Origin: Oscillospiraceae bacterium
Lineage (GTDB): Bacteria > Bacillota > Clostridia > Oscillospirales > Ruminococcaceae
Direction of reading: 5' to 3'
Length of the DNA: 64,000 bases
NCBI GenBank assembly: GCA_022508825.1
Contig: JAFLUI010000001.1
Span: forward strand, 1-64,000
Shown here: piece by piece, positions 1-62,335 of the stretch
Layout: the number at the start of each line of letters is the position of its first letter
How positions within the stretch are numbered: position 1 is the first letter of the stretch
Notes under the pieces: generated by a model
What the model was told of the DNA's origin: nothing
Seen by the model: the letters and a program-made list of their open reading frames with translations, nothing else
Databases searched by the model: none
Made by a program: the position numbers and the translations under genes

Positions 1-599
1 TAATTTCCTATCTCGTCAAGGATGCTCTGATCCCAGAAATCCATATACGCCTCGTCTATTATAACAAGACAGAACACATTCTTTACAAGCCTGATAATAT
101 CCTGCTTAGTGACACCCAGAGATGTAGGATTACAGGGATTTGAAAAGATGACAGCCTTTATGCTGTTATTGTTGCAGTAGGAAATGACCTTTGGTATGCT
201 TATCTGCAGGGACGGCTCCTTCGGCATAGTCTCAACGTCCAGCTCATACAGGCTTCCGTAGAAGGCGTACATTGAAAAATCCGGAGAGAGGGTCAGAATC
301 TTGTCTCCCTTTTCAAGAAAACAGCCTGCAATAATGCTTATAAGCTCGTCTGAGCCGTTTCCGGCGGTGATATATTTTTCGGGGACATCGTAATACTCGG
401 AAAACGCCTTTACCGCCTTTGTCGCCATAGGGTCGGGATAGCGGTTCAGGGAGACCTTTTTTATCTCCTCCGCGATCTTATCTCCAAGGGTATCATTTAT
501 ATTGAAAAAAGACTCGTTTGCGTCCAGCCTTATTCTGTAATTACCCTCAATAGGGTCATACGGCTCGACTTTTTTTAATTTTGAATTAAGCTCGTACAT
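1..599 (-). CDS. hisC: Histidinol-phosphate aminotransferase (3' part outside window)
   Basis: PLP-dependent aminotransferase of histidine synthesis, converting imidazole-acetol phosphate to histidinol phosphate with glutamate as donor. The frame runs off the left edge, so only about the first 200 residues are visible. Seen: the start MYELNSKLKKVEP, then RLDANES and NRYPDP, and further on SNPCNPTS and IIDEAYMDF, in which the Asp should contact the PLP ring nitrogen. The PLP-binding lysine lies beyond the edge. The ATG at 599 has an AAAGGA ribosome site. It lies 20 bp after hisD and is probably the fourth gene of the his operon, which continues off the window. Other HisC-like aromatic aminotransferases share these motifs; the operon decides the call. 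Confidence 0.93.
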   Translation of the reverse strand, partial: MYELNSKLKKVEPYDPIEGNYRIRLDANESFFNINDTLGDKIAEEIKKVSLNRYPDPMATKAVKAFSEYYDVPEKYITAGNGSDELISIIAGCFLEKGDKILTLSPDFSMYAFYGSLYELDVETMPKEPSLQISIPKVISYCNNNSIKAVIFSNPCNPTSLGVTKQDIIRLVKNVFCLVIIDEAYMDFWDQSILDEIGN

Positions 600-619: not shown

Positions 620-1906
620 TTATTCAAATCTTACCTTTACAGCATTAGCGTGGGCAGTAAGACCCTCACGCTCTGCAATGCAGACAATGTCGTCCTTGGC
701 GTCAAGCAGAGCCTGTTCGGTATAGTAGATGAAGCTTGAACGCTTTGTAAAGCTGTTTACCGAAAGCGGGGAGAAAAATCTCGCCGTTCCGCTGGTGGGA
801 AGAACGTGGTTAGGACCTGCAAAGTAGTCTCCCAAAGGCTCGGGAGCGTATTTTCCCAGAAATACAGAGCCTGCATTGTCTATCATTCCGATATACTGCA
901 GAGGGTTCTCCACCTGCAGCTCAAGGTGCTCGGGAGCAAGCTCATTTGCAAGCTCAATGGCACATTCAAGACAGTCCGCAACAATGACTGCTCCGTAATC
1001 GGACAGTGACTGCTCGATGATCTCCCGTCTTGAAAGCTCCTTCACCTGTCTTTCGAGCTCGGCGATGGTCTTGTCTGCGATATCCTCGCTTGTTGTTATA
1101 AGGATAGAGGACGCCAGCTTGTCGTGTTCCGCCTGAGACATCAGGTCAGCCGCAAGATACTTAGGGTCGGCAGTTTCGTCCGCAACAACAAGTATCTCAC
1201 TGGGACCCGCTATCATGTCGATGTCCACCTTTCCGTAAAGAAGCTTCTTTGCAGTTGCAACGAAAATATTGCCGGGACCCACGATCTTATCTACCTTGGG
1301 AATTTCCTCCGTACCGTATGCAAGAGCAGCAACAGCCTGAGCGCCTCCTGCAAGGAACACACGGTCAACGCCGCAAACAGACGCAGCCACAAGAATGTCC
1401 TTGTTGGGAGTGCCGTCCTTTAACGGAGGAGTCACCATTATAATTTCCTTTACCCCTGCTATTTTTGCGGGGATGGCGTTCATAAGCACGGATGAGGGAT
1501 ACGCCGCCGTACCTCCGGGAACGTAAAGACCCACCCTTTCAAGACCTCTTACACGCTGACCGAGAATAACTCCGTTGTCGTGAGGGTCGATGAAGCCCTG
1601 CTCCTTTTGTCTGTGGTGGAAAGCAGCGATGTTTTCCATAGCGTCCAGAAGTGCGTTTACAAAGTCCTCGTCCGCCTCGTCAAGAGCGTCGTGGATAACA
1701 TCAAGAGGTACCTCGTAATACTCGGGAAGCTTGCCGTCAAATTTAAGGGTGTAGTCCTTGACAGCCTTGTCTCCGTTTTCCTTCACATTTTCTATTATCT
1801 CCGAAACGATCTCGGTTACTCTTTTGTCGGTCTCACCGTTGCGCCTTTCCACTTCCTTAAGGAAAGCCACCTCGTCGGTGCCGTTAGCGATTATCTTTCT
1901 TATCAT
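620..1906 (-). CDS. hisD: Histidinol dehydrogenase
   Basis: Zn-dependent enzyme that oxidises histidinol to histidine in two NAD-linked steps, the last steps of the pathway. The 428 residues are the usual full length. Visible motifs include GPGNIFVATAKKLLYG followed by IDMIAGPSE, the metal-site segment LMSQAEHD, the catalytic APEHLEL near residue 325, and a C-terminal YFAGPNHVLPT. The start has a GGGAGGG ribosome site 8-9 bases upstream. It follows hisG by 16 bp and precedes hisC by 20 bp, so one transcript is likely. No truncation or missing key residue was noticed. Confidence 0.97.
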   Translation of the reverse strand: MIRKIIANGTDEVAFLKEVERRNGETDKRVTEIVSEIIENVKENGDKAVKDYTLKFDGKLPEYYEVPLDVIHDALDEADEDFVNALLDAMENIAAFHHRQKEQGFIDPHDNGVILGQRVRGLERVGLYVPGGTAAYPSSVLMNAIPAKIAGVKEIIMVTPPLKDGTPNKDILVAASVCGVDRVFLAGGAQAVAALAYGTEEIPKVDKIVGPGNIFVATAKKLLYGKVDIDMIAGPSEILVVADETADPKYLAADLMSQAEHDKLASSILITTSEDIADKTIAELERQVKELSRREIIEQSLSDYGAVIVADCLECAIELANELAPEHLELQVENPLQYIGMIDNAGSVFLGKYAPEPLGDYFAGPNHVLPTSGTARFFSPLSVNSFTKRSSFIYYTEQALLDAKDDIVCIAEREGLTAHANAVKVRFE

Positions 1907-60046: not shown

Positions 60047-60094
60047 TTGACAAATAAAATTAAATGTGTTATTCTTTCAATATGCTTGCAAGCA
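60047..60094 (+). promoter_or_regulatory. Promoter and palindromic operator of the rtcB operon
   Basis: TTGACA (60047-60052), 17 bp, TATTCT (60070-60075). A perfect 12-bp palindrome TGCTTGCAAGCA (60083-60094) sits at the expected start of transcription, a usual place for a repressor site. Confidence 0.7.
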
Positions 60095-60132
60095 AAATTA
60101 TGATTTTAAATTTATGAAAGGAGGCGGACGCC

Positions 60133-60243
60133 ATGACAAAAACATATATACTTACAATAAGTAAAACAACATATAAAGGCATTTTCAAACGACTGTGCGT
60201 TCTTGAAGTATGTCCGCCTGCGCATACGCATACGGATATATAA
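60133..60243 (+). CDS. Leader peptide upstream of rtcB (36 residues)
   Basis: A short ORF with an AAAGGAGG ribosome site at the right distance. MTKTYILTISKTTYKGIFK, followed by RLCVLEVCPPAHTHTDI, contains seven Thr and several Lys residues and does not resemble a secreted or metal-binding peptide. Codons 27-31 form the segment that can pair with the attenuator (60212-60226). The stop at 60241 is 27 bases before the terminator. A regulatory role is more likely than a product role, since it has the classic leader-peptide geometry. Confidence 0.65.
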   Translation: MTKTYILTISKTTYKGIFKRLCVLEVCPPAHTHTDI

Positions 60244-60267
60244 GAAATCCGGCATATTATTGTCATT

Positions 60268-60300
60268 ATGCGCTCTCGTTTGTACGGGGGCGCATTTTTT
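60268..60300 (+). terminator. Intrinsic terminator between leader ORF and rtcB
   Basis: Arms 60268-60277 and 60286-60295 (six GC-rich pairs plus G-U pairs) and TTTTTT. Only 48 bases before the rtcB start. Confidence 0.8.
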
Positions 60301-60347
60301 GCGCGCAGAAATATCACAAACAAACACTATTGACGAAAGGAATTATT

Positions 60348-61556
60348 ATGATCGAATTAAACGGAAAATACAACTCAGCAAAGGTCTTCACAGATGTAAT
60401 AGACAGCGCTTCTGTATCGCAGATAATCGAATTTTGCAGTCAGGAGTTCACTGTCGGCGAAAAAATACGCATGATGCCGGATGTCCATGCAGGAATGGGA
60501 TGTGTCATCGGAACTACCATGACCATCACCGACAAAATCGTCCCCAATCTCGTAGGCGTGGACATCGGATGCGGCATGGAGACCGTCCTTATCAAGGAAA
60601 AACACATAGAGCTCCAACAGCTTGACAAGCTCATTTACGCAAAGATACCCTCCGGATTCAGCATCCGCAGCAAGCCCCACAAATACGCTGACCGGATCGA
60701 CATCTGCGAGCTCAGATGCGCAGGTAAAATAGACCTGCGCCGTGCAGAGCGCTCTCTCGGCACTCTTGGCGGAGGAAATCATTTTATTGAAGCGGACAGG
60801 GGCGAAAAGGGTATCTATATCGTTATCCACAGCGGCTCCCGTCATCTTGGCGTGGAGGTGGCGAAATACTATCAGGAGCAGGGCTACAAGCAGCTAAATC
60901 ACGCCGGGGACGACGCCGTCCGTCAGCTTATTGCCGACCTGAAAGCTCAGGGACGGGATACCGAGATCAGCAGGGAGCTTAAAAAGCTTGAAAACACCAA
61001 GCGGACGAAAATTCCCAAGCATCTTGCATATGTCAGCGGACAGCTTTTCGATGACTACATCCACGACATGAAGCTGGTCCAGCAGTATGCCGATCTGAAC
61101 AGAAAAGCCATGATGAACGAGATCATCAGCGGATTGAAGCTGACCGTTGTGGAACAGTTTACAACCATCCACAATTATATTGACACTGACAATATGATCC
61201 TGCGAAAGGGAGCTGTGTCTGCTCAGAAGGGCGAAAAGCTCATTATCCCCATCAATATGCGGGACGGCAGTCTTATCTGTATCGGAAAAGGAAGTCCCGA
61301 CTGGAACTTCTCTGCTCCCCACGGCGCAGGCAGGCTTATGAGCCGCGGCGAAGCAAAGGAAAGCTTTACTGTCAGCGAGTTCAAAAAGCAGATGGCTGGT
61401 ATCTACAGTACCTCCGTGGGCAGAGGGACTCTTGACGAGTGTCCTATGGCTTACAAGGGCATGGACGACATTCTTAACAACATCGGTGACACCGCAGAAG
61501 TAGCGGAGATAATCAAGCCTATTTACAATTTCAAAGCCGGAGGAGAACAGGAATGA
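60348..61556 (+). CDS. rtcB: RtcB family RNA ligase
   Basis: Ligase that joins 2',3'-cyclic-phosphate or 3'-phosphate and 5'-OH RNA ends, using GTP and Mn, and thus repairs cleaved tRNA or other RNA. 402 residues, the short bacterial form. Motifs: MMPDVHAGMGCVIG (about 43-56; Asp, Cys, metal), GVDIGCGMETV (about 68-78), LGTLGGGNHFIE (about 138-149; Asn, His), HSGSRHLG (about 162-169) and PHGAGRLMSR (about 325; His for GMP). The ATG at 60348 has AAAGG, and a longer frame back to 60210 overlaps the terminator and leader. The following GNAT gene overlaps by 4 bp. No rtcA is present. Confidence 0.95.
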   Translation: MIELNGKYNSAKVFTDVIDSASVSQIIEFCSQEFTVGEKIRMMPDVHAGMGCVIGTTMTITDKIVPNLVGVDIGCGMETVLIKEKHIELQQLDKLIYAKIPSGFSIRSKPHKYADRIDICELRCAGKIDLRRAERSLGTLGGGNHFIEADRGEKGIYIVIHSGSRHLGVEVAKYYQEQGYKQLNHAGDDAVRQLIADLKAQGRDTEISRELKKLENTKRTKIPKHLAYVSGQLFDDYIHDMKLVQQYADLNRKAMMNEIISGLKLTVVEQFTTIHNYIDTDNMILRKGAVSAQKGEKLIIPINMRDGSLICIGKGSPDWNFSAPHGAGRLMSRGEAKESFTVSEFKKQMAGIYSTSVGRGTLDECPMAYKGMDDILNNIGDTAEVAEIIKPIYNFKAGGEQE

Positions 61557-62002
61557 ATATTATAGAATTCTTTGAAAGTCCCGAAAAGGAGCACTGGCTT
61601 GAAGAGATCGGGAAAAGCGACTGGCGTGCCGCCGCTTTTCTCGTAAAAAACATCAAAGAAAATACATTCGATGATTATTGGGGAAAAGGCGGCAAGCTGT
61701 TTATTCTCACGGATGTTGAAAAAGTCGCCGCATTTGCGACTCTTTCTCCCAAGGACTGCATCGAAGACGATTCCCTCTCCCCTTGGATTGGCTTTGTATA
61801 CACCTTTCCCGAATACCGGGGACGCCGCCTGATGGGGACGCTTATTTTCCATGCCATTGAGGAAGCGAAAAAGCAGGGTGCAGAAAAAATTTATATCTGC
61901 ACAGACCATGTAGGACTTTATGAAAAATACGGCTTTACCTATATGGAAAGCCGTCCGGACATCTGGGGAGAGATCAGCAGGATTTATTATCAGGATATTT
62001 AG
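61553..62002 (+). CDS. GNAT-family N-acetyltransferase, coupled to rtcB
   Basis: 149 residues. The CoA-binding segment is FPEYRGRRLMGTLIFHAIEEAKKQGA (about 84-110), with the C-terminal IYICTDHVGLYEKYGFTYME. It is translationally coupled to rtcB (ATGA overlap), so it may act in the same response, perhaps by modifying an RNA or a protein of translation (inference). Substrate unknown. Repeat copy C begins directly at its stop codon. Confidence 0.9.
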   Translation: MNIIEFFESPEKEHWLEEIGKSDWRAAAFLVKNIKENTFDDYWGKGGKLFILTDVEKVAAFATLSPKDCIEDDSLSPWIGFVYTFPEYRGRRLMGTLIFHAIEEAKKQGAEKIYICTDHVGLYEKYGFTYMESRPDIWGEISRIYYQDI

Positions 62003-62107: not shown

Positions 62108-62335
62108 ATGGAAAAGTTCATACCGCTGGGTAAAATGAGCAAGAAAAAACAGCGGGAGATCCACCGTCTCAGCCGAAAGGACTGGGGCGGCATATCCCCT
62201 GTTACAAGAAAAGAGAAAAATCCCAAGGCTTACAACAGAGCTGCAGAAAAACGCAAAGGAGCCTCCCGAAAAAACTGGGAGGCTTCCTATTTTTATTTTG
62301 CAGACAAAGCTCTCTTTCCTATGTCCGTCCTGTAA
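62108..62335 (+). CDS. Small basic protein without an in-frame stop before its terminator
   Basis: 75 residues in the open frame. The first 48 (MEKFIPLGKMSKKKQREIH, then RKDWGGISPVTRKEKNPKAYNRA) recall a conserved small basic protein of Clostridia that ends near this point. The open frame does not stop there but runs through a strong hairpin (62258-62287) and 43 bases into the purD tail. AAAGGAA is found about 9 bases before the ATG. If the hairpin stops transcription, the message would lack a stop codon. The last 25 residues look like read-through. Confidence 0.65.
   Translation: MEKFIPLGKMSKKKQREIHRLSRKDWGGISPVTRKEKNPKAYNRAAEKRKGASRKNWEASYFYFADKALFPMSVL
62258..62301. terminator. Hairpin terminator between the small basic gene and purD
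   Basis: GGAGCCTCCC (62258-62267) pairs with GGGAGGCTTCC (62277-62287, one bulged T), followed on the plus strand by TATTTTTATTTT. The minus strand lacks a strong T-run. Confidence 0.8.

Follow-up and report, generated by a model that had tools for sequence, protein, structure and literature searches.

A conserved leader with a small open reading frame upstream of rtcB in Ruminococcus and relatives, probably a ribosome-controlled transcription attenuator

The rtcB gene of an Oscillospiraceae bacterium is preceded by a leader that is, with good probability, a ribosome-controlled transcription attenuator induced by antibiotics or damaged ribosomes. The leader lies in a window of 64,000 nucleotides (contig JAFLUI010000001.1, assembly GCA_022508825.1, positions 1 to 64,000), and all window features described below are on its forward strand. 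Our reading draws on the parts of the leader, their conservation and covariation, an open reading frame (ORF) that is kept open, and the genes with which similar leaders are associated; from these we infer termination in vivo, the direction of the switch and the inducer. RtcB repairs cleaved RNA, and its role in Bacteria is still under debate. We describe the leader as a new family within a known kind of RNA switch, one whose main target is new. No family of Rfam release 15 scored above its gathering threshold in the window's leader, permissive scans also gave none, and no relevant Rfam match was seen in the window or its relatives. Leader-peptide control of rtcB had been presented as undescribed in a preliminary description of this DNA, and we likewise found no description of leader control of this gene in the literature (open-licence papers).

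The leader begins with a sigma70-type promoter (TTGACA-17-TATTCT, 60047-60075), whose -35/-10 layout is also present upstream of the leaders of relatives. It is followed by a Shine-Dalgarno (SD) sequence (AAAGGAGG, 60117-60124) that is conserved in both leader types, the window type and the Ruminococcus flavefaciens type, and by an ORF of 36 codons (MTKTYILTISKTTYKGIFKRLCVLEVCPPAHTHTDI, 60133-60243) with its ATG at 60133 and its TAA at 60241-60243. An intrinsic terminator hairpin (60268-60295; arms 60268-60279 and 60284-60295, 12 bp, -19.0 kcal/mol) with a T run at 60296-60300 stands between this small ORF and the gene; one such terminator was found, against 0.4 expected in shuffles. The promoter, the 36-codon ORF with its strong ribosome site and the strong terminator had all been pointed out in the preliminary description and were confirmed by our sequence scan. 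The parts are laid out as in a transcription attenuator, not as in the translational attenuator named there.

The remaining parts are alternative pairing strands. The antiterminator strand (60186-60200) consists of CAAACGA (60186-60192), which pairs with 60276-60282, and GTGCGT (60195-60200), which pairs with 60268-60273; the resulting antiterminator of 13 bp (-16.6 kcal/mol), with both-side changes in its pairs, overlaps the first terminator arm. Segment 1 (R1; AGGCGGACG, 60122-60130), an anti-antiterminator that lies between the leader SD and the start codon and so overlaps the start region of the small ORF, pairs with segment 2 (S2; TGTCCGCCT, 60211-60219), a run of late ORF codons complementary to the leader's own start region, and covariation of this pairing is seen in relatives. 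After read-through, segment 5 (GCGCGCAG, 60301-60308) can pair over 8 bp with 60193-60200, a pairing that is weak in the window's clade and strong in R. flavefaciens-type leaders. Folding, proposed earlier as a check, showed the rtcB leader region to be more stable than shuffled sequence (z -3.29).

The gene under control, rtcB (60348-61556), encodes an RNA ligase, as had been stated before (PF01139, E 1e-58, 200 bits against a cut-off of 27). Its identification as the PrfH-linked RtcB2 was rejected, with a TIGR03073 score of 99 bits below the cut-off of 272 and neighbours that comprise a GNAT acetyltransferase and a small protein but no prfH. The GNAT gene (61553-62002) overlaps the rtcB stop, and its homologue at locus L190 of another genome (31% identity over 127 amino acids) has a leader copy of its own. 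The small basic protein encoded at 62108-62335 (MEKFIPLGKMSKKKQREIHRLSRKDWGG...) has no Pfam or NCBIfam match and is 50% identical over 34 amino acids to a homologue encoded in L190, downstream of the leader and its GNAT gene. Homologues of this small protein recur adjoining rtcB or GNAT genes.

We compared the 80 closest rtcB genes of the genome collection, a sample with rather few genes from outside the family. About 52 of them have a small ORF, SD and terminator in the same place, and the terminator was detected by script in 51 of the 52 leaders. In the R. flavefaciens-type genus (g44), a covariance model recovered 57 leaders, spread over 50 of 80 genomes. No stop codon interrupts the ORF frame between the ATG and segment 2 in any of the 74 non-redundant leaders, whereas the other two frames are open in 5 and 14; many of the 74 were chosen with an ORF requirement, and nearly all of the g44 model hits, chosen without it, still have the ORF. 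The script's one ORF exception, L306, has the ORF when read by eye.

Several individual sites depart from this arrangement. The R. flavefaciens-type leader at L306 (G819, about 90-260, minus strand) diverges directly after the leader stop codon and is apparently interrupted by inserted DNA. At L187 (G242, 1421-1583, minus strand) short repeats, and no rtcB, come after a window-type leader; as the family scan gave no rtcB match in this genome, the leader looks like a remnant after rtcB loss. Locus L313 (G822) holds near-identical leader copies at about 70-200 and 1960-2140, 1.9 kb apart, of which the upstream copy ends before the terminator with other genes next to it and the downstream copy precedes rtcB. 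At L327, L328, L329 and L335 (G009, G007, G008 and G010) there are conserved RNAs that resemble the leader, with a terminator and with 1:2 complementarity (AGGTGGTGAACAGTATG with AGTACTGTTCACATCTT in L327); the script called no same-strand downstream gene at these four loci, which are candidate orphan leaders or small RNAs. An order-wide pattern search recognized no leader outside the family, and most of its matches were chance-like, as judged from the matched sequences. Weak model matches at L188, L195, L200-L204, L334, L336-L338 and L342-L344, and at L347, L361 and L372, also look like chance and were set aside.

We assessed the helices by a swap test that avoids circularity, in which partners were exchanged among 49 non-redundant leaders and each duplex was re-optimised (2000 swaps). 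The terminator (3:4; z -15.6), the 1:2 pairing between the leader start region and the ORF (z -10.3), the 2:5 pairing between the ORF and the segment separating terminator and gene (z -9.5) and the antiterminator 2:3, formed by segment 2 and the first terminator arm (z -3.7), were each matched by 0 of 2000 swaps, and the control stretches (for instance R1 with the tail, or the post-stop region with the arm) were no different from swaps in the same 49 leaders. After the terminator, the 1:2 helix (60122-60130/60211-60219) is the best supported: in the R. flavefaciens-type alignment it is 98.9% paired, with four pairs altered on both sides and 15 both-side-changed cells against 2.2 expected, and 83% of its cells are paired in the window's clade.

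The antiterminator shows the weakest covariation of the helices (211 of 5000 swaps for the R. flavefaciens type alone; 24 of 5000 for the window type, loop included). In the window's clade 89% of its cells are paired, and three of its pairs have changed on both sides (one in the window itself, GC to AU, and two in relatives, AU to GC and CG to UA) among ten sequences for which the shuffle controls were modest. The strand that takes this part in R. flavefaciens-type leaders is the first half of segment 2 (GGAGU(UU)GC with GCACUCC). The partner strand proposed in the preliminary description, 60220-60226 with 60267-60273, does exist as a 7-bp pairing (-11.0 kcal/mol), but the terminator is the stronger of the two, and bases around the stop codon pair with the arm no better than swaps do; conservation in relatives, which the description had made decisive, is lacking for that pairing and holds for another 2:3 pairing. 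The alignment of leaders that it suggested did yield compensatory changes and a conserved ORF. Its general proposal of leader-peptide attenuation of rtcB is supported by the conservation, the compensatory changes and the always-open ORF, with a different antiterminator partner.

In most relatives the 2:5 pairing joins the ORF segment to bases that precede the ribosome site of rtcB. It was matched by 0 of 5000 swaps in the R. flavefaciens type, and the swap test for segment 5 was not significant in the window's clade. That 2:5 simply switches access to the rtcB SD was rejected, the computed accessibility showing no mean change.

To relate these helices to ribosome position, the nascent RNA of the 49 leaders was folded up to the terminator loop with a ribosome placed at the start codon, in mid-ORF or at the stop codon. 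A ribosome on the start codon increased the probability of the antiterminator from 0.17 to 0.52 (40 of 49 leaders, p 1e-10), one in mid-ORF had no effect (0.18), and one at the stop gave 0.04. For the window's leader the corresponding values were 0.80 for free RNA, 0.94 at the start, 0.93 in mid-ORF and 0.00 at the stop, where the 1:2 helix forms (0.65). Since the free RNA of this leader favours the antiterminator and a local hairpin outcompetes 1:2, its off state depends on translation. From the ribosome-state folding, termination is expected under free translation, and read-through when a ribosome is held early.

In equilibrium folding the terminator prevails over the antiterminator for almost every leader and ribosome state, and therefore the decision of the switch must be kinetic. 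The same dominance of the terminator would suit constitutive read-through, in which a leaky terminator and a chance ORF provide low, fixed rtcB expression. We consider this improbable, as two observations speak against it: the ORF is open in 74 of 74 leaders, the other frames in 5 and 14, and helices beyond the terminator co-vary.

The ORF could matter through its peptide or through the passage of ribosomes. KHGVCP of R. flavefaciens leaders is the reverse complement of the start region of the same leader (GGTGAACACCATG), with one mismatch and G-U pairs, and one RNA segment is read as HGVC, MEFAC or WSLP, depending on the leader. Because the same segment is read in different frames, it is held by RNA pairing, and we rejected KHGVC, MEFAC and WSLP as a peptide-arrest motif: they are a single RNA segment in three frames. 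The ORF is nevertheless kept open, so ribosome passage matters, and judging from these sequences the leader peptide itself probably does not.

These peptides also bear on an amino acid attenuator of the trp type, in which shortage or cleavage of one tRNA would be sensed at regulatory codons and RtcB switched on. With such attenuators the rtcB leader shares a leader peptide and alternating 1:2, 2:3 and 3:4 helices, and RtcB repairs cleaved RNA, as this account would want. Unlike in them, the start region of the leader itself serves as segment 1 and there is no regulatory codon run, the longest run of a single residue being at most three in all 68 leader peptides examined. I, K, N and T abound in the variable part of the peptides, consistent with AT-rich DNA, and similar leaders stand ahead of drug and ribosome genes; we regard a trp-type switch as quite unlikely.

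Under the attenuator reading that we favour, freely translating ribosomes would cross the antiterminator strand and go on to the stop; segment 2 would then re-pair with segment 1, the terminator (60268-60295) would form, and rtcB would be off. A ribosome held at or near the leader start would keep segments 1 and 2 apart, so that the antiterminator strand could pair with the first terminator arm and polymerase could read into rtcB, the GNAT gene and the small protein gene. The signal read would be the position of the ribosome and no particular peptide. The natural inducers would most likely be translation-blocking antibiotics or damaged ribosomes.

Ribosome or antibiotic stress is suggested as the signal, by analogy with vmlR and hflXr, because similar leaders precede genes for HflX, an Lsa-type ABC-F, exporters and GNAT proteins. 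The preliminary description had offered cleaved or depleted tRNA or a bound antibiotic as the cause of stalling: the leaders at HflX and Lsa-type ABC-F genes agree with ribosome or antibiotic stress, but the lack of codon runs leaves a specific tRNA-depletion signal unsupported. These sites were found by model searches, some with E-values of 1e-5 to 3e-3, and we call the leaders closely similar with no implication of common descent. Closely similar leaders precede an Lsa-type ABC-F ribosomal protection ATPase (L185; ribo_prot_ABC_F, 451.8 bits, cut-off 380), HflX (L331 and L333; 446 bits, cut-off 217), a MATE pump (L321), the ATPase of an ABC-2-type transporter (L317 and L318), ABC exporters (L330 and L362), a GNAT gene (L190 and L318, with the small basic protein next in L190) and a P-loop protein of 200 amino acids with no assigned family that is followed by a GNAT gene (L311). 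The 1:2 complementarity and the terminator are visible in the sequences of these sites; 2:3 and 2:5 were read by eye at some of them, where the script chose the wrong T run. Segment 5 is present in several of these leaders, for example as GCAGGC. In L318 (G809, 1690-2000) two divergent leaders lie back to back, with the ABC transporter ATPase on one side and the GNAT gene on the other.

These associations also weigh on two readings without a ribosome sensor. RtcB or another protein might bind the leader RNA and autoregulate, the long helices being its binding site or a ligation substrate; segment 5 does adjoin the ribosome site of rtcB, and in leaders of the R. flavefaciens type it and segment 2 co-vary, yet similar leaders, several with segment 5, precede unrelated genes (Lsa-type ABC-F, ABC transporter, GNAT and HflX), and we hold this to be very improbable. 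A drug- or ligand-binding riboswitch that does not need translation would fit a regulon of drug-resistance-like genes but is hardly credible for a leader that has no conserved ligand pocket, is variable outside its pairing strands and ribosome site, maintains an ORF and lacks an Rfam match.

The ribosome-controlled attenuator has close parallels in the vmlR and hflXr leaders, antibiotic-induced transcription attenuators established at the bench (PMC9226507, PMC6310831), which we compared by their described logic. As in the rtcB leader, the start of the vmlR upstream ORF (uORF) of Bacillus subtilis lies inside the anti-antiterminator, a ribosome stalled on it releases an antiterminator, which prevents an intrinsic terminator from forming, and read-through transcripts form an extra pairing near the ribosome site of the gene, like 2:5 here (PMC9226507). 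vmlR controls an ABC-F, and a similar leader here also precedes one (L185). The vmlR uORF has only three codons (MIN), whereas the leaders here have 24-36; its read-through pairing breaks an SD-sequestering hairpin, whereas the accessibility of the rtcB SD showed no change here; and its target is vmlR, whereas the leaders here mostly precede rtcB (PMC9226507). The Listeria hflXr/rli80 leader, induced by lincomycin and erythromycin, likewise combines a small ORF within an anti-antiterminator with an antiterminator and a terminator, and an HflX gene is a target common to it and to the similar leaders here; its 14-amino-acid ORF has an RLR arrest motif, in contrast to our leaders, which have no conserved arrest peptide (PMC6310831). 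Escherichia coli rtcBA is induced by translation-challenging agents via RtcR and sigma54, that is, by an activator protein at a sigma54 promoter, in place of an RNA leader behind a sigma70-type promoter as here (PMC12606134).

On balance, we lean slightly towards the view that one leader family serves a translation-stress regulon in Ruminococcus and relatives, in which ribosomes held at the start codon, with no arrest peptide, would switch on RtcB for RNA repair, HflX for the splitting of ribosomes, the Lsa-type ABC-F for their protection, and efflux. The leader would add to the known RNA families one that is absent from Rfam 15. If the regulon is real, RtcB would be part of an antibiotic response through RNA attenuation, and the presence of a similar leader at rtcB, at genes for ribosome rescue and at resistance genes would directly connect RNA repair with ribosome stress in bacteria that are abundant in the gut and rumen.
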